Assembly (NCBI GenBank): GCA_030429865.1
Contig: JAUIFX010000015.1
Location: 1-41,106, forward strand
Direction of reading: 5' to 3'
Origin: Gammaproteobacteria bacterium
GTDB lineage: Bacteria; Pseudomonadota; Gammaproteobacteria; Ga0077536
Length of the DNA: 41,106 nt
The position numbers and the translations under genes were made by a program. The notes under the pieces are model-generated. The model searched no databases. It was given only the letters and a program-made list of their open reading frames with translations, and was not told the DNA's origin. Positions within the stretch are counted from its first letter, which is position 1. Each line of letters starts with the position of its first letter. Shown one piece after another: positions 10,681-20,945 of the stretch.

Positions 10681-10883
10681 CGGCAGGCCGCCCCGCTACC
10701 GCCCCGAGGGCCTTCCGGCTCGCGCCATCTCTGCCTGTCCAGGATTGGCGCAAGATTGACGCCCCCTGCCTGTCCGGGATTGATGCATCTCTGCCTGTCC
10801 AGGATTGAAGTCCACCCGGCAGGCTGCCCCGCTACCGCCCCAAGGGCCTTCCTCCTCGCGCCATCCCTGCCTGTCCAGGATTG
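10681..10883. repeat. 67-bp direct duplication (10681-10747 and 10817-10883)
   Basis: The two copies lie 136 bp apart and agree at 62 of 67 positions. Each begins CGGCAGG, runs through CCCGCTACCGCCCC and ends with the array motif CTGCCTGTCCAGGATTG. The space between copies is filled with further motif copies, so the array grew at least partly by segmental duplication. Confidence 0.85.
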
Positions 10884-11003
10884 ACGTCCCAGGATTGAAG
10901 TCCACCTGCCTGTCCAGGATTGATGTCCCAGGATTGATGCAGGATTGACGTCCCCTGCCTGTCCAGGATTGATGTCCGTCCAGGATTGATGTCCCAGGAT
11001 TGA
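10731..11003. repeat. Array of about 12 copies of a short motif, core AGGATTGA
   Basis: The full unit CTGCCTGTCCAGGATTGA occurs at 10791-10808, 10867-10884, 10906-10923 and 10955-10972, with variants at 10731-10748 (ending GG) and 10766-10783 (CGGGATTGA). Shorter copies (AGGATTGA, often flanked by GTCC) occur at 10752 (AAGATTGA), 10891, 10930, 10941, 10982 and 10996. Spacing is irregular (about 11-76 bp), so this is neither a simple tandem repeat nor a CRISPR. Degenerate copies continue to about 11070. The array fills the gap between the amidotransferase-like gene and the envelope operon. The minus strand is open across it and would encode repeats of NPGTSILDRQ, but nothing else supports a protein there. 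Confidence 0.9.
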
Positions 11004-11247
11004 TGTCCTGGTCGGCCCGTTGACGGCTGTCCCGAAATTGTGGTCCCGACATGGCGGGGATTGGCGGCTTCGGGATGCTCGCGGCAGCGCGCGCCTTGGA
11101 CGTCAGGGGATCTGCCCTCATGTAAACTGGAATGTCGTGCGGTGCCCGCCCTGCAGCGTGCACCCGGCATTGCCCCAACCCTGCGCGCGTCATGGCCCGA
11201 CAGAGCCCCGATAGCGCCCCGAACGTGTGAGTGCCCGGACCAGCCCC
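11004..11247 (+). promoter_or_regulatory. Gene-free region upstream of the envelope operon
   Basis: No gene is supported here. A weak extended minus-10-like TGTAAACT lies around 11120-11127 with no convincing minus-35. As the only stretch between the repeat array and the first operon gene it should hold the operon promoter. Confidence 0.25.
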
Positions 11248-11994
11248 ATGCCGCTTCTGACATCGACTTCGCGCCGCGCCCCGCGTGTCTTACTGGCCGG
11301 GATCGCCGCATTCGCACTGACCGCCTGCGCGAACAAGCCGCGCCCGCCACCGCCGCAACCGCGCAGCGCGGCGCCTGCCGTGACGGAACCCATCGAACAA
11401 GCGCCGCGCGAAGCGCTCGAAGCGCGGCCCTACGCGCCGCCGAGCGAGAACGCGGCAGAGGTGAGCATCGAGGAAATCCCGCTCGATGCGGCGGGCAAAC
11501 CGCTGGACACGCCGCAGCCGGCCGAGGCCGCGGCCGAGAGCGGTGAGCCTGGCGCCGCCGCGCGTGACGCGGGCGGCGGTGGCGGCAGCACGCCCGGAGG
11601 TGCCGCGACGCGTACCGGCGCACCGCTAGCGACCGGCGCGAGACCCGCGGCAACGCCTGCCGGCACAACCCTCAGCGGCCCCGAGATGCGCATCGGCAGC
11701 GGCGTCCCCCAGGGCGAAGCCGACGGCCGAGGAAGTCGTCGCGAACCGCTCGAAGTCCGCGGCGCGGGCGGGGCCGGCGCACAGGGTTCGGGCCTCGGGC
11801 AGACGCCGGATTCGAGCGGCGAGACCAGCGGCACACCGCGGCCGGCAGGCGCCGGTGCCAGCGCGGACGCCCCGGAGAGCCGCGATGACGACGTCGTCGC
11901 GCGGCAATTGCGCGAGGCGGCCGAACGCGAAACCGACCCGGCGCTGCGTGAGAAGCTGTGGCGCGAGTACCGACGTTACGTCGGGGACTCGTAA
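11248..11994 (+). CDS. Pro/Ala/Gly-rich lipoprotein, first gene of the VWA/TolQ-like operon
   Basis: 248 residues from ATG at 11248; GTG at 11227 would add seven residues. A lipoprotein signal peptide ends in the lipobox LTAC, lipidated at Cys27, followed by Ala-Asn, so outer-membrane retention is likely. Residues about 30-205 are low-complexity and rich in Pro, Gly and Ala, probably an extended periplasmic tether. The C-terminal ~40 residues (RDDDVVARQLREAAERETDP... EYRRYV) form one amphipathic, highly charged helix and look like the functional part. It is followed after 39 bases by the TPR protein. No enzymatic motif. I infer an outer-membrane anchor for the complex encoded downstream. Confidence 0.75.
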   Translation: MPLLTSTSRRAPRVLLAGIAAFALTACANKPRPPPPQPRSAAPAVTEPIEQAPREALEARPYAPPSENAAEVSIEEIPLDAAGKPLDTPQPAEAAAESGEPGAAARDAGGGGGSTPGGAATRTGAPLATGARPAATPAGTTLSGPEMRIGSGVPQGEADGRGSRREPLEVRGAGGAGAQGSGLGQTPDSSGETSGTPRPAGAGASADAPESRDDDVVARQLREAAERETDPALREKLWREYRRYVGDS

Positions 11995-12033
11995 CAGGTC
12001 CGCCAGCGCCGCGCGGCCACGTCACCCGTCATC

Positions 12034-13542
12034 ATGGACGCCCCTTTCGACTGCCTGCCGGCTGCCCCGGGACCGGTCACGCCGGCCCCCTACTCCGCAC
12101 CGCCGCCGCAACGCGAGACCCGCCCGGCCAGGCCCCGCTGGCGACGCTGGGCCTGGGCGGCCATCATCGCCGCGCTCGCGCTGACGCTGTCCCGGCTGCC
12201 CTGGCACGCGCCGCCGCAACAGGTCGTGCCGCCGCGCGACGCGGCCACCCCGGATGCGCCGGCGAACCCGGCACGCGCACCGCGCAACCCGGCGACCATG
12301 GGCACGGCACGCGGCAAAGCGCAGGCCGCACTCGCCGCCACGCTGGAGCGCGTCGACGCGCTCGTGCGCCGCGATGCCGAGCGCTGGGCGCGTGCCGACA
12401 TGCACGCTCTCGAAGCGCACGTCGCGGCCGGCGAAAAAGCCTACCGTGAAGCACGCTACGACGATGCACGCGCGCGCTACGCGCAAGCCGATGATCTTGT
12501 CGCCGCGCTCGAGGCCCGCGTGCCGGCCCTCACCACGGCGCTGGTCGAGCGCGGCGAACTGGCCCTGGCGCAGGGCGACTCGGCCGCGGCGGCGGCGAGC
12601 TTCGAACGCGCACTGACAATCGATCCCGGGCACGCCGCCGCCCGCGACGGCCGTGCGCGCGCCGCCACCCTCGACCAGGTCCTCGCACTGCTCGGCCAGG
12701 CCGCCGGCAACGAACGACGCGGCGACGTCGACAAGGCGCTCGCCGCCTACCGCGAAGCGCTCGCCATCGATGCCGCGGCAACGGGCGCGGCCAGCGCGAT
12801 CCAGCGTATCGAGCGCGCACAGCGCGGCGACGCTTTCCGCGACAGCCTCGGCCGCGCCCTCGGCGCGCTCGCCGGGGGGGATTTCGCGGCCGCGCGCAAG
12901 GCCTTGGCGCGGGCCGCCGGACTCGACGCGACGAACCCCGAGCTGATCGCCGCACAGGCCCATCTCGAACGGGCCGAGAAGGCCGCGCGCATCGAGCGCG
13001 CACTGGCGCGTGGCGAGGCGGCGACCCGCAACGAGCGCTGGGCGGACGCCGTCACGCACTACGAGCAAGTACTCGGCGACGACGCAAGCCTCACGGCCGT
13101 CCGCACCGCCCTCGACACCGCCCGCGCACGTGCCCGCCTCGATGCCGAACTCGGCAGGGTGCTCGCCGCGCCGCAGAAACTCGTCGACGACGACGCCCAC
13201 GCCGCCGCGAGCCGCCTGCTCGCGCGCGCGCGGCGCATCGCGGCGCCGGGCGAGCGGCTCAGCGCCCAGCTCGCGCGCCTCGAACATGCGCTTGCGCTGG
13301 CGCGCACGCCGGTGGCCGTGCGCCTGCGCTCCGATGGCCTGACCGCGGTGCGCATCGAGGGCGTCGGCGAGCTCGGCAGTTTCGCCGCGCACACGCTGCG
13401 CCTGCGCCCGGGCCGTTACGTCGCCCGCGGCACGCGCGACGGCCACGCCGCGGTGCGCGTAGAATTCGAACTTGCACCCGGCAGCGCCGCGACCGAGGTC
13501 AGCGTGATCTGTCGCGACGCCGCCCGACCAGTGACCGAGTGA
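12034..13542 (+). CDS. Membrane-anchored TPR-type protein with C-terminal PEGA-like module
   Basis: 502 residues. A proline-rich cytoplasmic head of about 35 residues is followed by one transmembrane segment (about 37-55) after the basic RPARPRWRRW, so the rest should be periplasmic. Residues about 90-430 are Ala/Leu/Arg helical repeats of tetratricopeptide type (for example AYREARYDDARARYAQADDL, ERGELALAQGDSAAAAASFERALTIDPGHAAA, DVDKALAAYREALAID). The last ~70 residues (TPVAVRLRSD...LRPGRYVARGTRDGHAAVRVEFEL) resemble a PEGA beta module. The next gene starts 4 bases after its stop. Probably a periplasmic scaffold. Confidence 0.75.
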   Translation: MDAPFDCLPAAPGPVTPAPYSAPPPQRETRPARPRWRRWAWAAIIAALALTLSRLPWHAPPQQVVPPRDAATPDAPANPARAPRNPATMGTARGKAQAALAATLERVDALVRRDAERWARADMHALEAHVAAGEKAYREARYDDARARYAQADDLVAALEARVPALTTALVERGELALAQGDSAAAAASFERALTIDPGHAAARDGRARAATLDQVLALLGQAAGNERRGDVDKALAAYREALAIDAAATGAASAIQRIERAQRGDAFRDSLGRALGALAGGDFAAARKALARAAGLDATNPELIAAQAHLERAEKAARIERALARGEAATRNERWADAVTHYEQVLGDDASLTAVRTALDTARARARLDAELGRVLAAPQKLVDDDAHAAASRLLARARRIAAPGERLSAQLARLEHALALARTPVAVRLRSDGLTAVRIEGVGELGSFAAHTLRLRPGRYVARGTRDGHAAVRVEFELAPGSAATEVSVICRDAARPVTE

Positions 13543-13546
13543 GCCC

Positions 13547-15691
13547 TTGACCCGACCGCACGACCCGCCTGAGCAGGCGCCGCTGCACGCCGCGCGTGCC
13601 ATCGAGCCGCACCGTTACCGGCCGCCGGGCGGCTTCGAGTTGCCCCCGCCGCGCCTGCCGTGGGGCCGCCTCGCGCTCGCCGTGCTGCTCGCCGCCGCGC
13701 TGTGGCTGCTGTGGTTCGTGCTCACGGCGCGCTCGGTCGGCATCGAAACCGAGCCCGGTGACGCCGCGGTGAGCGTGCTCGAATGGCCGGTGATCAGCAT
13801 CGGCAAGCACTGGCTGCTGCGCCCCGGCGCGCGCCGCGTGCGCGCCAGCGCGCCGGGTCACGTCACGTTCGACGGCGTCATCGAGGTCGGGCCGGAACAG
13901 CTGCAGACCCACACGCTCGCGCTGCAGCGGCTGCCCGGGCTGCTGCGCGTGGACGTCGCGCCGGTAGCGAGCGCGGAGATCCTCATCGACGGCGTCAGTG
14001 CGGGCACGGTCCCCGGGCTGATCGGCGAGGTGCCCGCGGGCGTGCACGACATCGAGGTCCGGGCGCCGCGCTACCAGAGCTTCCACGTCACGCTCGACGT
14101 CGAGGGCAAGGGCATCGAGCAGTCGCTCGCGGCCACGCTCGAGCCCGGCTGGGCGGACCTCGAGATAGCGTCGGTGCCGGTCGGTGCCAGCGTGCGCATC
14201 GATGGCGAAACGCGTGCCTCGGCGCCGGCGACGCTCGAAGTCCTCGCCGGCCGGCACGTGCTCGAACTCGTTCATCCCGGCTACAAGACCTGGCGCCAGG
14301 CGCTCGCCATCGTGCCGGGCCAGCCGGTCCGCCTCGGCGAGATCGTGCTCGCACCGGCCGACGGCGAACTCGCGCTCGACTCGGTCCCGCCCGGTGCCAA
14401 CGTCACCGTCGATGGCGAGTACCGCGGCCGAACCCCGCTGACGCTCGCGCTCGTGCCGGGCAGCGCGCATCGCCTGCATCTCGTTCGCGAGGGCTACCGG
14501 CCGTTCGAGGACAGCATCGAACTCGCATCGGGTGCGAGCGACACGCGCACCGTGACGCTCGAACCCGAGCTCGCGACGCTGATCCTCGAGACCACGCCGG
14601 CCAATGCCGAACTGCTCGTCGATGGCGCACCACGCGGCTCGGCGACGCAGACGCTGCAACTGCCGACCGCCGCCCACGAACTGACCGTGCGCGCGCCGGG
14701 CCATGCCACCTGGCAGGCCTCGGTCACGCCGCGCAAGGGCGTCGCCAAGCGCATCCGCATCCGGCTCAAGACCGCCGCGGAGGCGGCTGCCGAGCAGGCC
14801 GCGGGCCGCGGCGAGAGCGCTCCCCGGCAGGGCGCGGCGCGTGCCGCCTCGCGTTCGGGGGCGCCGCCGCGCGGCGAGATCACGACCCATGCCGGCCAGC
14901 GCCTCAAGCTCTTCGAAGGCGGCCGCGCGACGCTCGGCAGTGCACCCGGCAGCGCCGGGCACCAGGCCGACGAACCGCTGCGCGAGGTCGTCCTCCAGCG
15001 TCCCTTCTACCTTGGCGTCAGCGAAGTCACCAATGCCGAGTTCCGCCTGTTCCTCGCGACCCATCGCACGCTGAGCGAAGACGGCGCCGAACTCGACGCC
15101 GACACGCAACCGGCCGCCGGGATCACCTGGACGCTCGCCGCGAGCTATTGCAACTGGTTGTCGCGCCGCGACGGGCTGCCGCCGTTCTACCAGATCAAGT
15201 ACGGCGAGGTTCTCGGTGTCGATCCCGGCGCGACCGGCTACCGCCTGCCGACCGAGGCCGAGTGGGAATGGGCCGCACGCGTGCCACCGGAAGGCGAACC
15301 GCTCGACTTCGCGTGGGGGGCGCGCTACCCGCCGCGCGGCGCTGCCGGCAACCTCGCCGACGTCAGTGCCGGTGGACTCGTCGCAGCGACCATCGACGGC
15401 TACCGCGACGGCTACGCGGCGGCGGCGCCGGTGGCGAGCTTCGCGCCCAACGCGCGCGGTCTCCACGACCTCGGCGGCAACGTTGCCGAGTGGGTACACG
15501 ATGTCTATGCGGCGACCCCGGTCGCGGCGCCGAGCGTCGACCCGATGGGCCCGCCGGCAGGCGAGGCACACGTCGTCAAGGGTGCGAGCTGGGCGCAGGC
15601 CTCGCTCGAAGCCCTGCGCCTGAGCGCGCGCGAAGGCGTCACCGGCACGCGCCCCGACATCGGCTTCAGGCTGGCCCGCTATGCGCAGTAG
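13547..15691 (+). CDS. Membrane-anchored PEGA-repeat protein with non-catalytic FGE/SUMF1-like domain
   Basis: 714 residues from TTG at 13547; an in-frame stop lies just upstream. One transmembrane segment (about 41-60) follows a short cytoplasmic head. About five PEGA-type beta modules fill residues 65-415 (for example ADLEIASVPVGASVRIDGE, GELALDSVPPGANVTVDGEY, ATLILETTPANAELLVDG). An Ala/Arg linker leads to a formylglycine-generating-enzyme-like domain (about 445-713) with GVSEVTNAEFRLFL, YRLPTEAEWEWAAR, DLGGNVAEWVHD and VKGASW...GFRLAR. At the position of the active FGE cysteines the sequence is ALRLSAREGV, with no Cys, so a binding role is more likely than catalysis. The 3' end overlaps the next gene by 11 bases. 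Confidence 0.85.
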   Translation: MTRPHDPPEQAPLHAARAIEPHRYRPPGGFELPPPRLPWGRLALAVLLAAALWLLWFVLTARSVGIETEPGDAAVSVLEWPVISIGKHWLLRPGARRVRASAPGHVTFDGVIEVGPEQLQTHTLALQRLPGLLRVDVAPVASAEILIDGVSAGTVPGLIGEVPAGVHDIEVRAPRYQSFHVTLDVEGKGIEQSLAATLEPGWADLEIASVPVGASVRIDGETRASAPATLEVLAGRHVLELVHPGYKTWRQALAIVPGQPVRLGEIVLAPADGELALDSVPPGANVTVDGEYRGRTPLTLALVPGSAHRLHLVREGYRPFEDSIELASGASDTRTVTLEPELATLILETTPANAELLVDGAPRGSATQTLQLPTAAHELTVRAPGHATWQASVTPRKGVAKRIRIRLKTAAEAAAEQAAGRGESAPRQGAARAASRSGAPPRGEITTHAGQRLKLFEGGRATLGSAPGSAGHQADEPLREVVLQRPFYLGVSEVTNAEFRLFLATHRTLSEDGAELDADTQPAAGITWTLAASYCNWLSRRDGLPPFYQIKYGEVLGVDPGATGYRLPTEAEWEWAARVPPEGEPLDFAWGARYPPRGAAGNLADVSAGGLVAATIDGYRDGYAAAAPVASFAPNARGLHDLGGNVAEWVHDVYAATPVAAPSVDPMGPPAGEAHVVKGASWAQASLEALRLSAREGVTGTRPDIGFRLARYAQ

Positions 15692-15914
15692 CCCGATCGC
15701 CGCCTGGGTGCTGTGCGCGCTGCTCGCCGGGCTGCCGTCGGCCGGTACGGCCGCTGCCGAGCGCACCCGCGCTGGCGAGGCGCGCGGCGAGGCGCGCGGC
15801 GACCAGGCGACAGCACGTCCCGAGCACCGCCAGCGGCGCCTGCCGGACGACGTCTTCAAACCCAGCGAGGAAGTCGGCGAGGACCACCCGGTGCCGTTCC
15901 CCGTCGACATCTGA
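15681..15914 (+). CDS. Small exported protein in the VWA/TolQ-like operon
   Basis: 77 residues. A clear signal peptide (MRSSPIAAWVLCALLAGLPSA, cleavage probably near GTAAA) is followed by a short, very hydrophilic mature part of about 50 residues rich in Arg, Glu and Ala that ends in an acidic tail (PSEEVGEDHPVPFPVDI). It overlaps the preceding gene by 11 bases and is followed after 31 bases by the proton-channel gene. The family is not recognised. The conserved-looking tail RRLPDDVFKPSEEVGED suggests a binding peptide rather than a folded enzyme. Confidence 0.65.
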   Translation: MRSSPIAAWVLCALLAGLPSAGTAAAERTRAGEARGEARGDQATARPEHRQRRLPDDVFKPSEEVGEDHPVPFPVDI

Positions 15915-15945
15915 CCCCGAATCCCACGGCCTGCCGAGCATTCCC

Positions 15946-16743
15946 ATGAAGCACAACCCGACCACCGAGTTCTTCTTTCAGCTCGTCGCCCTGCTCGTCG
16001 CCGTCATCGTCGTGCACGTGCTCTACGTCACGCTGGTGTGGCCCGGCGCGCAGTCGGTGCTCGACGCGCGCGCAGCTGCCCAGGCGCTCGGCGACGCGTT
16101 CGAGATGGACCGTTCCTTCCTCGTCGTGATCAAGGACTACGAGCAGGAAGCCTGTTTCGTCCTGATGCTGTGGGCATCGGCCATCATCGCCTGGAAAGCA
16201 CGCTTCGTGCTGAGCGAACGGCGCCACCTCGCGCAGGACCTGCTCGCGACCGAAGAGGGCACCCGGATCCTGCCGGAGGACACGCGCGCCTACGCGCGGC
16301 GGCTGCAGGCCCTGCCCGCGGCCGAACGCGAGTACCTGCTGCCACGCGCGCTGCTCGCCGCGCTGCAGCGGTTCGGCGCCACCGCCTCCATTCCCGACGT
16401 CGCCCACGCCGTGCGCGAGACCTGCGAGGTCGAGGCCGAACACCTCGATGCGGAGCTGTCGATGATCCGCTACATCGTGTGGGCGATTCCCTCGATTGGC
16501 TTCATCGGCACGGTACGCGGCATCGGCCAGGCGCTCGGCCAGGCCCACCGGGCCGTCGAGGGTGACATCGTCGGCGTCACCGCGAGCCTCGGCGTCGCCT
16601 TCAACTCGACGTTCATCGCGCTCGTGATCAGCCTGTTCATCATGTTCCTGATGCACCAGCTGCAACTGCTGCAGGACCGGCTCGTGTTCGACGCGCAGTC
16701 CTATTGTGATCTCAAGCTGTTGCGCCACCTCGCGGTGCGCTGA
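15946..16743 (+). CDS. MotA/TolQ/ExbB-type proton channel protein
   Basis: 265 residues from ATG at 15946. Hydrophobic segments lie at about 9-32, 69-86, 174-192 and 212-236, with a cytoplasmic loop of about 88 residues between the second and third. The third segment contains IPSIGFIGTVRGI and the fourth GVTASLGVAFNSTFIALVISLF, the paired motifs of the MotA/TolQ/ExbB family that form the proton path. It has no peptidoglycan-binding or long-tail extension. In such complexes a pentamer of this protein surrounds a dimer of single-pass partners; here the obvious partners are the two downstream proteins with TolR/MotB topology. The start is fixed by the first hydrophobic segment. Confidence 0.88.
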   Translation: MKHNPTTEFFFQLVALLVAVIVVHVLYVTLVWPGAQSVLDARAAAQALGDAFEMDRSFLVVIKDYEQEACFVLMLWASAIIAWKARFVLSERRHLAQDLLATEEGTRILPEDTRAYARRLQALPAAEREYLLPRALLAALQRFGATASIPDVAHAVRETCEVEAEHLDAELSMIRYIVWAIPSIGFIGTVRGIGQALGQAHRAVEGDIVGVTASLGVAFNSTFIALVISLFIMFLMHQLQLLQDRLVFDAQSYCDLKLLRHLAVR

Positions 16744-16757
16744 GCGGGGCGGTAACG

Positions 16758-18035
16758 ATGGCTCTGTGGGTCCTGCAACTGAACGACACCGGCATCCGCG
16801 TCACGCGTGACGGCGAACTCGTCGACGACAGTCCGGGCGTCGCCGTGGTCGGCCGCCACGACGTGCTCACCGGCAGCGCGGCCGCGGCTGCGCGCTTCCT
16901 CGAGCCGCGCGCCGCGCACGACCGCTTCTGGCAGCGTCCCGGAGAGCAGCCCCTGCCCGGCGCGACGCGCCAGTGCCGTCACCATGCCGACCTCGTCTAT
17001 CACCACCTTTCGGCCATCCTGGCGCGCTGCGGCAAGCCGCGCGAGGCGGTGCTCGCGGTACCCGCGCACTACGGCGAGGCGGAACTCGCGCAGCTGCTCG
17101 GGATCTGCGAAGCACTCGGACTCCACGTGCCGGCGCTGGTCGACAGCAACGTCGCCGCCCTCGCCGCCTGTGCGCCGCCCGGCTGCTACACCGTGGCCGA
17201 ACTCCATCGCCACCACGCGACGCTGGTCGATGTCGATGTCGACGAGACCTGCAGCCGCGGTAGCGTCACGCTGGTCGAAGCGGCCGCGCTGGCGCGGCTC
17301 GAACATGCCTGCCTCGACCTCATCGCCGACGCGTTTCTCGACCAGGCGCGCTTCGATCCGCTGCACGAAGCTGCCAGCGAGCAGCGCCTCGCCGATACCC
17401 TGCCAGCGTGGCTCGCAGAGGCTGCCGGCGACCCGGCGGAAGTCGAGATCGCGCTCACGCACGGCGGCCGCGATCATACCGCGCACGTCGCGCGGCGCGA
17501 GTTCGAGCGCATCACGGCGATGGTACTCGGCGCACTCGTCGAACGCGTGCCATCGACGCGCGCGCTCGTCGTTTCGCCGGCCCTCGCGGCGCTGCCCGGC
17601 GCCCTGCGCGTGCTCGGCGCCGACGCGGTGCTGCCGGCCGACGCCGCCGCGGCCGGCATCGCCGCGCACCGCCTCGCCCTCGGCAGTGGTGAGCCGACCT
17701 GCTTCGTCACCGTGCTGCCGGCGAGCAGCGCGCCGACGCTCGCGTGCCGCGGCACTGCCGCGCCAACGGCGGATGCACCGACGCACCTGCTGTGTGGCCC
17801 ACGTGCGGTGCCGCTCGGCAACGCGCCCCACACGCTGAACGCCGATGGCAGTCTAGGCGGCGGCGACGCCGCCAGCGCCGCCACGGTACGCCGCGTCGAC
17901 GGCCGCGTGCTTGCCTGGCCCGGTCGTGCCGGGCTCGAGGTGAACGGTCGCGCGGTACGCGACGAGGTCACGCTCGCAGCCGGTGATTTTCTGCGCAGCG
18001 CCGGCGCCGAGTTCCGCGCCATTCGCGTCGACTGA
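16758..18035 (+). CDS. Actin/Hsp70-fold protein with C-terminal FHA-like domain
   Basis: 425 residues, no signal peptide or membrane segment, so cytoplasmic. The segment EAVLAVPAHYGEAELAQLLG...ALGLHVPALVDSNVAALAA (about 95-135) is the strand/helix pattern of the Hsp70/MreB actin-like fold, where DnaK has a VPAxF and VNEPTAAA equivalent. A later stretch (RALVVSPALAALPGALRVL) resembles the second-lobe GG region. The classic DLGTT phosphate loop is not evident, so ATP binding is uncertain. The last ~65 residues (GSLGGGD..., GLEVNGRAV, VTLAAGDFLRSAGAEFRAI) have the beta pattern of an FHA domain. It sits between the channel gene (14-base gap) and the first VWA gene (6-base gap). Possibly a cytoplasmic regulator of the channel. 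Confidence 0.6.
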   Translation: MALWVLQLNDTGIRVTRDGELVDDSPGVAVVGRHDVLTGSAAAAARFLEPRAAHDRFWQRPGEQPLPGATRQCRHHADLVYHHLSAILARCGKPREAVLAVPAHYGEAELAQLLGICEALGLHVPALVDSNVAALAACAPPGCYTVAELHRHHATLVDVDVDETCSRGSVTLVEAAALARLEHACLDLIADAFLDQARFDPLHEAASEQRLADTLPAWLAEAAGDPAEVEIALTHGGRDHTAHVARREFERITAMVLGALVERVPSTRALVVSPALAALPGALRVLGADAVLPADAAAAGIAAHRLALGSGEPTCFVTVLPASSAPTLACRGTAAPTADAPTHLLCGPRAVPLGNAPHTLNADGSLGGGDAASAATVRRVDGRVLAWPGRAGLEVNGRAVRDEVTLAAGDFLRSAGAEFRAIRVD

Positions 18036-18041
18036 ACGACC

Positions 18042-19118
18042 GTGCGCCGCCAGCGCCGCCCGTTGTCCGCGTTCAGCCTGTCGTTCCTCGACATCATGTC
18101 GTGCGGGTTCGGCGCGGTGGTGCTGTTGTTCCTCATCATCAAGCACCAGACCGACGTCGCCGTCGCCGTACCGCCCTACGATCTCGGCGTCGAACTCGAG
18201 ATGCTCGGCGCCGAGCTCGAAGCCGCACGCGACGCCCTCGCCGCGCAGCATGCGCAGAACACGACGGACGAATCCGCGCTGGCCGCGGCGGCAGCCGCGC
18301 GCGACGCGGCGCAGGCCGCGCTCGGCGCTGCGCGCAGTGCCCGCGACGGCCGCCCCTCGCGCGCCGCCGAGATCGCCCGGCTGCGCGCGAGCATTCGCCA
18401 GGCCGAGATCGACAAGCGCGGCCTCGAAGCCCAGATCCACGAGAAGTCGCGCGCGGTACGCCGCTTCGCGGGTGAAGGCAACCGCGAATACCTGACCGGT
18501 ATCCAGCTCGGCGGCAAACGCGTCCTGATCCTGCTCGACAGCTCCGCGAGCATGCTCGACGAACGCATCGTCAATGTCGTTCGCAAGCGCAACATGGACG
18601 AAGCGACGCGGCGCGCGTCGCCCAAGTGGCAACAGGCGCTGGCCACCGTCGACTGGATCAGCGCGCGCTTCCCACCCGGCAGCCGCTACCAGATCTACAC
18701 GTTCGCCGAGCGCGCGCGGCCGGCGCTTGCCGACACCGCCGGGCGCTGGCTGGACGTCGCCGACAGCGCGCGCCTGAACGCCGCCGTGGCCGCGACACGC
18801 GAAGTCGTTCCGAACGGCGGCTCCAGCCTGGAACGCGCGCTGCTCGTGGTCAGCGAACTCGACCCGCCGCCCGACAATGTCTACCTCGTCACCGACGGCC
18901 TGCCGACGCTCGGCACGAAGCCGCCGGCGCACAACACCATCGGCGGCGAGGCGCGGCTGCGCTTGTTCGAGCGCGCCGTCACGCGCATTCCCGAGGGCAT
19001 CCCGGTGAACGTGATCCTGCTGCCGATGGAAGGCGACCCGATGGCGCCGGCCGCTTACTGGCAGATCGCGCTCTACACGCGCGGCGCGTTTCTCAGCCCG
19101 GCGAGCGACTGGCCATGA
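18042..19118 (+). CDS. TolR/MotB-topology membrane protein with periplasmic VWA domain (first copy)
   Basis: 358 residues, GTG start. A short basic N-terminus is followed by one transmembrane segment (about 12-34, including SFLDIMSCGFGAVVLLF), resembling the single pass of TolR/ExbD/MotB-type partners of TolQ-like channels. Next comes an Ala/Glu/Arg coiled coil (about 50-150). The von Willebrand A domain (about 160-355) has MIDAS motif DSSAS at 166-170, a GGSS turn in place of the usual Thr, and the later Asp285 in VTDGLP. Topology places the VWA domain in the periplasm. The stop overlaps the start of the next gene by 4 bases (ATGA). Confidence 0.82.
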   Translation: MRRQRRPLSAFSLSFLDIMSCGFGAVVLLFLIIKHQTDVAVAVPPYDLGVELEMLGAELEAARDALAAQHAQNTTDESALAAAAAARDAAQAALGAARSARDGRPSRAAEIARLRASIRQAEIDKRGLEAQIHEKSRAVRRFAGEGNREYLTGIQLGGKRVLILLDSSASMLDERIVNVVRKRNMDEATRRASPKWQQALATVDWISARFPPGSRYQIYTFAERARPALADTAGRWLDVADSARLNAAVAATREVVPNGGSSLERALLVVSELDPPPDNVYLVTDGLPTLGTKPPAHNTIGGEARLRLFERAVTRIPEGIPVNVILLPMEGDPMAPAAYWQIALYTRGAFLSPASDWP

Positions 19119-20113
19119 GCGTGCGCCGGCGCGGCTTCGAGCCGATCAGCATCGCGTTCCTCGACGTCATTACCTGCGGCTTCGGCGCAATCATCCTGCT
19201 GTTGATGATCGCGCGCTTCGGCGAGCCGCCCGCGCCGGAGCCGGTCGACGATCCGCGCGGCGCGCGCATCGCGACCCTGTCGCGCGAGCTGTTCGCGGTG
19301 CGGCGCGAGACGCGTGCACTCGCCGCGGGCGCCGCAACGCGCGCCGAGCGCCTTGCCGCACTCGCGGACGAGACCGCGCGCCTGCGCGCGGAAGCCGCGC
19401 GGCTGAGCGCACGCGCCAGCGCTGCGGCCGCCACGGCCGCACGCGAGGCGGAGACGCTGGGCGCGCTGGAAACCGCGCAGCAGGCGCTCAGCGCCGAGAT
19501 GCGCCGGCTGTACCGGCAGCGCGATCGCATCCGCACCGATCTCGTCGGCGGCATCCCGATCGACAGCGAGTACATCATCTTCATCATCGACACCTCGGCG
19601 AGCATGTACCACCATGCCTGGGAGCGGGTGATCGATCAGATCGTGCAGACCTTGCAAGTCTATCCGCGGGTCAAGGGCATCCAGATCATGAACGACATGG
19701 GCGCCTACATGTTCGCCGAGTACCGCGGCCGCTGGATCGCGGATTCGCCTGCATGGCGTAATGCCATCGTCGAACGTCTGCGGACCTGGAACGCGTTCTC
19801 GAACTCGAGCCCCGTGGAAGGCATCGAGGCGGCCATCAAGACGTTCTACAGCCCCGACCGCAAGATCAGCCTCTACGTTTACGGCGACGAGTTCACCGGC
19901 GCCTCGATCCGCAAGGTGGTCGAACGGGTGCGCGCGATCAACCGTCCCGGCGCCGATGGCAAGCCGCTCGTGCGCATCCACGCGATCGGCTTCCCGGTGC
20001 AGTTCGCCAACGCGCCCGCGCTGCAGGAAACCGGCATCCGCTTCGCCACCCTGATGCGCGCGCTGACGCGGGAAAACGGCGGAACCTTCGTCGGCCTCGA
20101 CGCCTTTCGATGA
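19115..20113 (+). CDS. TolR/MotB-topology membrane protein with periplasmic VWA domain (second copy)
   Basis: 332 residues. Same plan as the preceding protein: basic start, one transmembrane segment (about 11-31, SIAFLDVITCGFGAIILLLM), coiled coil (about 45-140), then a VWA domain with DTSAS at 159-163 and YGDEF at the position of the later MIDAS Asp. The N-terminal ~30 residues of the two proteins match closely (SxxFLDxxxCGFGAxxLL) while the VWA domains differ, so they are old paralogs, perhaps a heterodimer in one channel. Translationally coupled to the first copy through an ATGA overlap. Last gene of the operon. Confidence 0.82.
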   Translation: MSVRRRGFEPISIAFLDVITCGFGAIILLLMIARFGEPPAPEPVDDPRGARIATLSRELFAVRRETRALAAGAATRAERLAALADETARLRAEAARLSARASAAAATAAREAETLGALETAQQALSAEMRRLYRQRDRIRTDLVGGIPIDSEYIIFIIDTSASMYHHAWERVIDQIVQTLQVYPRVKGIQIMNDMGAYMFAEYRGRWIADSPAWRNAIVERLRTWNAFSNSSPVEGIEAAIKTFYSPDRKISLYVYGDEFTGASIRKVVERVRAINRPGADGKPLVRIHAIGFPVQFANAPALQETGIRFATLMRALTRENGGTFVGLDAFR

Positions 20114-20135: not shown

Positions 20136-20165
20136 TTGACGGCTGCCGCGATGCGCGACTATCTT
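20136..20165 (+). promoter_or_regulatory. Sigma70-type promoter for the response regulator gene
   Basis: TTGACG at 20136-20141 and TATCTT at 20160-20165 are separated by 18 bp, about 80 bases upstream of the regulator start and 22 bases after the operon's last stop. This suggests the regulator is transcribed separately from the VWA operon. Confidence 0.5.
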
Positions 20166-20246
20166 GTTGGAAGACGGCCGCGACAACCGTCGCCCAACCG
20201 ACGCCAAGATCGGTTTTCTCGTGCATTGCAAAGGGAGTGCATACGC

Positions 20247-20945
20247 ATGCAGAACCACGATCCGCTATCGCCGCCCTACCACGTCTTCATTCTCGACGAC
20301 CATCGCTTCATCGGTGAGTTGCTCGGGCACCGCCTCGAAAGCGACTCGCACATGCGCGTGCTCGGTGTCGGCAGCCGCCCCGAGTCGCTCGACGCGGTGC
20401 TGACGCGGCACCGCGTCGACATCGCGCTCATCGACATGGATCTCGGTGAGCATGACGGCCTGCATGTCGCCGACGAGATGCTCGCGCGCTACCCGTCGCT
20501 GCGCATCATCGGCCTGTCCGGCTACGTCGAGTCCCATTATCCACTCGCCATGCTCGAGTGCGGTGGGCGCGGCTTCATGTCCAAGCGCAGTTCGACGAGT
20601 GAGCTGGTCAACGGCGTCAAACGCGTGGCGCGCGGCGATCTCGCCATCAGCCCGGACGTCGCCATGCACCTTGCGACCTGTGTTTCCGACGAGACCTGGC
20701 GCCGGCGCCTGCAGGGACTGACGCAGCGGGAGCGCGAGGTCCTGTGCCTGCTCGCACGCGGCTACTCGGTCGACGAGGTCGGCTCGCGCCTGGAACTCGC
20801 GGCGAAGACGGTGCAGTCCCACCGCACGAGCATGAAGCGCAAGCTCGGCGCCCGCAACGACGTCGAACTGTGCCTGATGGCGCTGCGCGCCGGCGTCGTC
20901 AGCGTGCGCGAAGCACGCGCCGACTACTGCCAGGCGACCTGCTGA
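20247..20945 (+). CDS. NarL/FixJ-type response regulator (REC + LuxR HTH)
   Basis: 232 residues from ATG at 20247, with GGGAG ten bases upstream. The receiver domain has the acidic pair in VFILDDHRFIGELL, the phospho-acceptor Asp in ALIDMDLGEHDG, a Ser in GLSGYVES and the conserved Lys in GFMSKRSS. The C-terminal LuxR-type HTH is GLTQREREVLCLLARGYSVDEVGSRLELAAKTVQSHR. All activation residues are present, so it should be phosphorylated, but no histidine kinase is encoded nearby. It follows the VWA operon by 133 bases with its own promoter and may or may not control it. Confidence 0.9.
   Translation: MQNHDPLSPPYHVFILDDHRFIGELLGHRLESDSHMRVLGVGSRPESLDAVLTRHRVDIALIDMDLGEHDGLHVADEMLARYPSLRIIGLSGYVESHYPLAMLECGGRGFMSKRSSTSELVNGVKRVARGDLAISPDVAMHLATCVSDETWRRRLQGLTQREREVLCLLARGYSVDEVGSRLELAAKTVQSHRTSMKRKLGARNDVELCLMALRAGVVSVREARADYCQATC

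Follow-up and report, generated by a model that had tools for sequence, protein, structure and literature searches.

The window analysed here is a 41,106-nucleotide stretch of gammaproteobacterial DNA (GenBank contig JAUIFX010000015.1), and the subject of the analysis is a group of eight plus-strand genes, g1 to g8, at positions 11248-20113, which together very probably build a proton-powered inner-membrane motor acting on the outer membrane. The list of open reading frames and their translations revealed spacings no larger than 39 bases, with two overlaps; from g1 to g8 the intervals are 39, 4, overlap, 30, 14, 6 and overlap in turn. This close packing, with the same coordinates and spacings, had been described in an earlier note made from the sequence alone, and the description holds. 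The first gene, g1 (11248..11994), encodes a proline/glycine-rich lipoprotein with the lipobox LTAC in its translation. As aspartate is absent at +2, the protein is assigned to the outer membrane by the +2 rule. Its homologues occupy the same position in most loci and keep the C-terminus DDDIVARQLREAA...LWxEYRKY. The product of g2 (12034..13542) is a TPR protein (Pfam TPR_1, 2e-10) with a PEGA-like C-terminal stretch; it is probably periplasmic and membrane-anchored through an N-terminal hydrophobic segment, which was read from the sequence and lies below the hydropathy cutoff used. The g3 gene (13547..15691) encodes a protein that crosses the membrane once and has four PEGA domains followed by an FGE-fold domain at the C-terminus, and g4 (15682..15915) encodes a 77-aa exported protein with the C-terminus SEEVGEDHPVPFPVDI. 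These are followed by a TolQ/ExbB/MotA-type channel, g5 (15946..16743), a cytoplasmic protein with the fold of the Hsp70 nucleotide-binding domain and an FHA-like C-terminal domain, g6 (16758..18035), and two proteins with a transpore helix carrying Asp17 and a VWA domain. In g7 (18042..19118) the helix and the VWA domain are joined by a coiled coil and in g8 (19115..20113) by a 92-residue helix. The TPR, PEGA/FGE-like and MotA/TolQ-type assignments given earlier agree with Pfam.

The conservation of this gene set was analysed through a species-genome scan with g5 (582 relatives), from which 80 loci were kept, nearly all labelled Gammaproteobacteria. Of the sufficiently long homologous loci, 61/63 had the full set g2, g3, g5, g6, g7 and g8 in one common order; in the remaining two the other genes stood in order and only g2 failed extraction. 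Because the six larger genes share their order in 61 of the 63 long loci, the gene set is well beyond chance, and it is an ancient conserved operon. The single operon proposed earlier is borne out. The g8 gene was present in 23/24 genomes of the window's own taxonomic family and in 18/274 sampled genomes across the class. In one family outside Gammaproteobacteria many sampled members carry it, for the most part as a tandem g7-g8 pair. The sole g5 of G009 and of G014, two genomes of the window's family, lies on a different contig from the remaining operon and both halves have been retained, which is good evidence for a functional link between g5 and the operon. An apparent loss of the system in a sister genome (G001) was rejected, as g8 runs into the contig end there and the gap is an assembly break.

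The variants of the operon revealed which of its genes belong together. On contigs of sufficient length, a divergent clade (L110-L117 and L122) has cB (an additional lipoprotein gene, described below), g2, g3, g4, g5, g7 and g8, and g6 is absent from these loci. Here every locus that extends far enough contains g2 and g3, and g4 was seen in every complete g5-g3 interval examined. In a third variant (L103, L108 and L109) g5 has been relocated behind g8. The stable core therefore consists of g2, g3, g4, g5, g7 and g8, and g6 is an added module. The expectation from the earlier note, that the channel and VWA genes are always accompanied by the other genes, stood for g2, g3 and g4, which were found wherever the divergent loci permitted, and failed only for g6. 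Two genomes (G010 and G013) carry two versions of the operon, the usual one and the divergent one lacking g6.

The channel protein g5 matched the Pfam family MotA_ExbB with an E-value of 3.6e-13. Two of its threonines, T189 (GFIGTVRGI) and T222 (AFNSTFIAL), are invariant in 80/80 sequences, and by motif we take them to be the proton-path threonines of TolQ/ExbB. The window genome has further MotA/ExbB and ExbD/TolR pairs besides the operon; ExbD/TolR (PF02472) was found at six places in the genome, none of them on the window contig (C242).

The proteins g7 and g8 are paralogues, and their N-terminal halves share 31% identity (E 2.6e-10). The transmembrane segment is SLSFLDIMSCGFGAVVLLFLI in g7 and SIAFLDVITCGFGAIILLLMI in g8, and the pore residue Asp17 is kept in 68/68 g7 and 70/71 g8 sequences. 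A TolR/ExbD protein from the same genome has its aspartate at the corresponding place, in the helix PYIDVMLVLLIIFMV. The helix of g7 and g8 has no histidine, so the SHLS motif of the TolA/TonB type is missing. The metal-ion-dependent adhesion site (MIDAS) motif DxSxS is kept in 71/71 sequences of both proteins, and Asp17, the MIDAS motif and the g5 threonines are retained in the divergent clades too. The VWA_2 family fell under its curated cutoff in g7 and g8 of the window; it matched 27/27 of the g7 homologues (best 3e-9) and 6/27 of the g8 homologues. The AlphaFold2 model of g8 showed a transmembrane segment at 14-33 (low confidence), a continuous helix at 47-138 and then a globular domain. 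The confident top PDB matches of this model in Foldseek were mostly VWA/I domains, such as integrin I domains and inter-alpha-inhibitor, and this settles the VWA assignment of g8. The 92-residue helix, if straight, measures about 14 nm as calculated from the model, a length that would be enough to cross the peptidoglycan layer. A single gene separates g5 from the g7-g8 pair in the window as well as in the long loci, and in the clade lacking g6 the pair directly adjoins g5. The channel of TolQ type with two TolR-like single-pass VWA partners, as proposed in the earlier note, is in accordance with these results; the motor part of the system is strongly supported, and its proton drive is probable. 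The start of g7 is unusual in three loci (L114, L115 and L122), where the conserved N-terminal sequence, which includes the pore aspartate (e.g. KRHRKTEGFNVAFLDIM), is encoded in frame and has no preceding ATG, GTG or TTG; a non-standard start codon is likely there.

The second group of results concerns g3 and g4. Pfam matched g3 with PEGA (2.3e-48, in four stretches) and FGE-sulfatase (1.2e-38), and hydropathy predicted a transmembrane segment at 42-60. The FGE domain aligns over its full length with formylglycine-generating enzymes and partially with PorK. Among 73 sequences Cys535 is the sole conserved cysteine, and the catalytic pair is absent, also in the alignment to human FGE. FGE catalysis by g3 was rejected on the absence of these two cysteines. 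A protein of this kind is known from the type IX secretion system (T9SS), in which PorK has an FGE fold that likewise lacks the two cysteines and is described as a docking hub beside a 5:2 motor (PMC12421860). The g3 protein scored 87.6 bits against the GldK/PorK model, whose cutoff is 350, and its likeness to PorK is an analogy in mechanism and not membership.

The sequence of g4 is fast-changing except at the C-terminus, which reads E-I-S-E-D-x-x-V-x-[FY]-P-V-D-I-stop. The conservation of this tail is the most striking new observation of the analysis. Asp at position -10, Pro at -4, Asp at -2 and Ile at -1 are identical in 71/71 loci, and the end is [FY]P[VIAT]DI in 70/71 and nearly always FPVDI. 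A small open reading frame with the same C-terminus follows g3 in 71/71 loci, and one was also seen in rearranged and divergent loci; these 71 sequences were found via the looser pattern P-x-[DNE]-[ILVMF], yet each examined interval had one. The looser end occurred in 0/494 other operon proteins. The g4 proteins of the divergent clade are shorter, contain a single hydrophobic segment and finish in the same way (e.g. SLNSPATFPVDI), and in the L110-L113 subclade the tail ends in INM, RNM or ERM. Such a constrained free tail would most simply be a docking peptide, as judged from the sequences. Since g4 stays behind g3 where g5 has moved, g3 is the first candidate for its partner. A role of the g4 aspartate as MIDAS ligand was also considered and is weakened by the L110-L113 subclade, which has the INM, RNM and ERM tails while its VWA metal motifs are intact (L110-L112). 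The tail as a ligand of g3 is therefore preferred over the tail as a MIDAS ligand.

The g6 protein had no match in Pfam. Its AlphaFold2 model (predicted local distance difference test score 93.7) superimposed on the nucleotide-binding domain of the Hsp70 protein DnaK with a Z-score of 27.8 and a root-mean-square deviation of 3.2 A over 309 residues, so the Hsp70/actin fold assigned earlier was right though Pfam is silent. The C-terminal 80 residues aligned weakly with FHA regions, such as that of EssC; the FHA-like tail, also assigned earlier, is supported by one homologue that matches Pfam FHA with 1.3e-12. The glycine-rich ATP phosphate loops were not recognisable by eye in the sequence alignment, on which ground g6 may be a pseudo-ATPase.

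The explanation that accounts best for these parts, and which is considered reasonably probable as a whole, is a 5:2 motor with a heterodimeric VWA axle, a scaffold of FGE, PEGA and TPR proteins, and remodelling of outer-membrane lipoproteins. Five g5 subunits would form a ring, as in the MotA/TolQ/ExbB family, around a central heterodimer of one g7 and one g8, each with a proton-binding D17 in the pore. Proton flow would turn or pull this heterodimer, and the long helices would take the VWA domains across the periplasm toward the outer membrane. There the VWA tips may engage the scaffold, which would comprise g3, g2, g4 and the outer-membrane lipoproteins (g1 here and others in relatives). 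In this scaffold g3 would be anchored in the inner membrane and serve as a docking hub rather than an enzyme, and g4 would dock via its C-terminal FPVDI tail. The g6 protein may be a regulator or assembly factor on the cytoplasmic side that is dispensable in some lineages. Most likely the motor would serve to assemble complexes of outer-membrane lipoproteins or to remodel them mechanically, akin to Tol-Pal and the T9SS motor. The gene set, its conservation, the key residues and the folds of g6 and g8 are shown by the analysis, and the 5:2 stoichiometry, rotation, partner contacts, location of each part and output are inferred.

Several results weigh against this explanation. No experiments on any member were found in the open-access literature, and there is no direct physical link of g1, g2, g3 or g4 to the motor. 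The best PDB profile matches of g5 are to TolQ and are weak (E 0.13). The profile of the g7/g8 transmembrane helix against ExbD/TolR proteins of the same genome was not significant; with two usable sequences and a short helix this comparison neither supports nor excludes homology, and because of it the equivalence of g7/g8 with TolR/ExbD rests on motif, position, topology and published AlphaFold3 models. One locus has a g8 homologue (L041:13192-14178) in which Ser replaces the pore Asp (FLSVITCGFGA), and its g7 keeps the Asp; going by these residues, this is a possible natural one-aspartate motor.

A more novel reading is that the genes encode an unnamed complete trans-envelope machine, either a distant relative of the T9SS motor or a product of convergence with it, in which the axle would drive the hub and g4 would be a moving ligand. 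The FPVDI tail of g4 would dock in the FGE groove or at the VWA metal site, and the Hsp70/FHA protein g6 would gate the motor from the cytoplasm. This version is entertained tentatively, as a possible but rather improbable one.

Unlikely, by our estimate, is a surface-attachment or gliding machine of the Gld/T9SS or Agl/Glt kind, in which the rotor would move a series of envelope proteins, the last of them a surface adhesin. VWA and PEGA domains are often adhesive, and an FGE-fold hub beside a 5:2 motor recalls GldK/PorK. Gliding has also been suggested for the related vWA transducers (PMC12204202). However, Sov, PorN/GldN, SprB or a Glt-like protein was not recognised among the eight genes, g3 stays far below the GldK cutoff as given above, and the carriers are mostly marine Gammaproteobacteria, which are not known as gliders.

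A Tol-Pal-like system for outer-membrane integrity or division constriction, or a lineage-specific helper of that system, is doubtful to a similar degree. The channel is nearest to TolQ, the periplasmic TPR protein and the outer-membrane lipoproteins are present, and the locus is kept in nearly every family genome, as a housekeeping function would be. Against this, the TolQ equivalog model gave g5 only 22.2 bits with a cutoff of 221, TolA, TolB and Pal are all missing from the locus, and the genome has the other MotA/ExbB and ExbD/TolR pairs mentioned above. The earlier view that the operon is neither Tol-Pal nor Zorya is in agreement with these scores and with the PADLOC search, in which no Zorya model matched and two weak unrelated matches alone were obtained. 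A Zorya-type system of anti-phage or inter-bacterial conflict, with a MotA-like motor that senses the envelope, has in its favour the MotA family membership of the motor and the VWA and FGE domains known from conflict systems (PMC7159879), but it is highly improbable, given that nuclease and helicase are absent, that 23 of the 24 family genomes carry the operon, unlike mobile defence systems, and that g8 had no match in the plasmid collection. Equally remote is a non-motor signalling device in which g5, g7 and g8 would be envelope sensors that report via g6. Proteins with FHA and Hsp70-like folds typically serve in signalling or as scaffolds, but a whole clade keeps the motor core without g6, and the proton-path residues are invariant.

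Further genes accompany the operon in most gammaproteobacterial loci, namely cA, cB, cC, cD and often an M48 peptidase; none of these is present at the window locus. The cA gene, upstream of the operon, encodes a TPR protein with a TonB_C-like end. In L080:1283-2593 and relatives it is exported, its end scored 24.2 bits with PF03544 against a cutoff of 24.6, and it is not TonB. The cB gene, between g1 and g2 in most loci, encodes a lipoprotein of about 400 residues. Protein and profile searches found no cB in the window genome, the same profile gave matches in relatives, and against the PDB sequences it matched nothing. The cC and cD genes behind g8 encode two conserved lipoproteins of outer-membrane type (L080:14228-15675 and relatives), seen in about 65 loci and with no Pfam match, and the M48 metallopeptidase often follows them. 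In the window the operon is directly followed on the same strand by a response regulator with a LuxR-type output domain (20136-20945), recognised by eye in its translation. A degenerate tandem array (10720-11008) lies just before the operon, with a unit of about 14-17 bases, CCAGGATTGATGTC, which often has CTGCCTGT directly before it. Its 15-base form CCAGGATTGATGTCC has four copies in the array and none elsewhere in the genome.

The earlier note had called the operon undescribed. This is wrong for the motor core, of which an in silico account appeared in 2025 (PMC12204202, Mol Biol Evol). For the full machine it is apparently right, as far as the section text of that report goes. The note's observation is confirmed and its interpretation partly supported; it had overlooked the 2025 core, the loss of the catalytic cysteines in the FGE domain and the conserved g4 tail. 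A search limited to open-access literature found no account of the full operon, which may be described elsewhere, and neither PADLOC nor NCBIfam gave a named system. To the core already predicted, the present analysis adds the stable gene core, the FPVDI tail, the inactive FGE hub and the Hsp70/FHA module. Flagella, Ton, Tol, gliding and type IX secretion all run on proton motors of 5:2 type. If the proposal is true, the operon encodes a further widespread 5:2 motor with two unlike VWA subunits as its axle, which would give a handle on the working of heterodimeric rotors and on what other uses bacteria make of outer-membrane force. Direct handles on the family, for which the 2025 report gave neither function nor phenotype, are offered by the FGE-fold hub and the peptide with the FPVDI tail.

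The operon can be compared with four known systems. It resembles the T9SS machinery PorKLMN/GldKLMN in its proposed 5:2-type motor with a long periplasmic shaft and in its FGE-fold hub lacking the catalytic cysteines (PMC12421860). The differences are that the hub in the window is predicted to be anchored in the inner membrane and has PEGA domains, and that the shaft tips are VWA rather than Ig-like; PorL, PorM, PorN and Sov had no match among the eight genes in NCBIfam and Pfam. With Tol-Pal it shares a TolQ-like channel, a TolR-like helix, a periplasmic TPR protein and outer-membrane lipoproteins. It differs in having VWA in place of the peptidoglycan-binding TolR domain and in the extra FGE/PEGA and Hsp70/FHA proteins, and Pfam and NCBIfam found no TolR, TolA, TolB or Pal among the eight genes. 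The gliding motor AglRQS of Myxococcus is alike in that a single MotA-like protein has two unlike partners. AglQ and AglS are not known to have VWA domains, unlike g7 and g8. AglRQS consists of one MotA-like and two different MotB-like proteins (PMC9389320), and its Glt partners were not seen in the window operon. The fourth system is that of the 2025 report, whose section text describes a vWA family tethered by a transmembrane helix that co-occurs tightly with tolQ homologues without tolR/exbD, with heterologous vWA pairs, a conserved aspartate and threonine ring, and AlphaFold3 models (PMC12204202). According to the same text the family occurs mainly in Proteobacteria and Verrucomicrobia and was described in silico with no name, function or phenotype, and no phenotypes are reported there for its related first vWA family. 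That section text omits the PEGA/FGE, small FPVDI, Hsp70/FHA and lipoprotein genes, and the window core was compared with this Idiomarina-type family by its described features. Every feature of this TolQ and TPH-vWA pair that was tested is found in the window core, that is, the pair itself, the aspartate, the threonines, the lack of tolR/exbD and the lack of SHLS.

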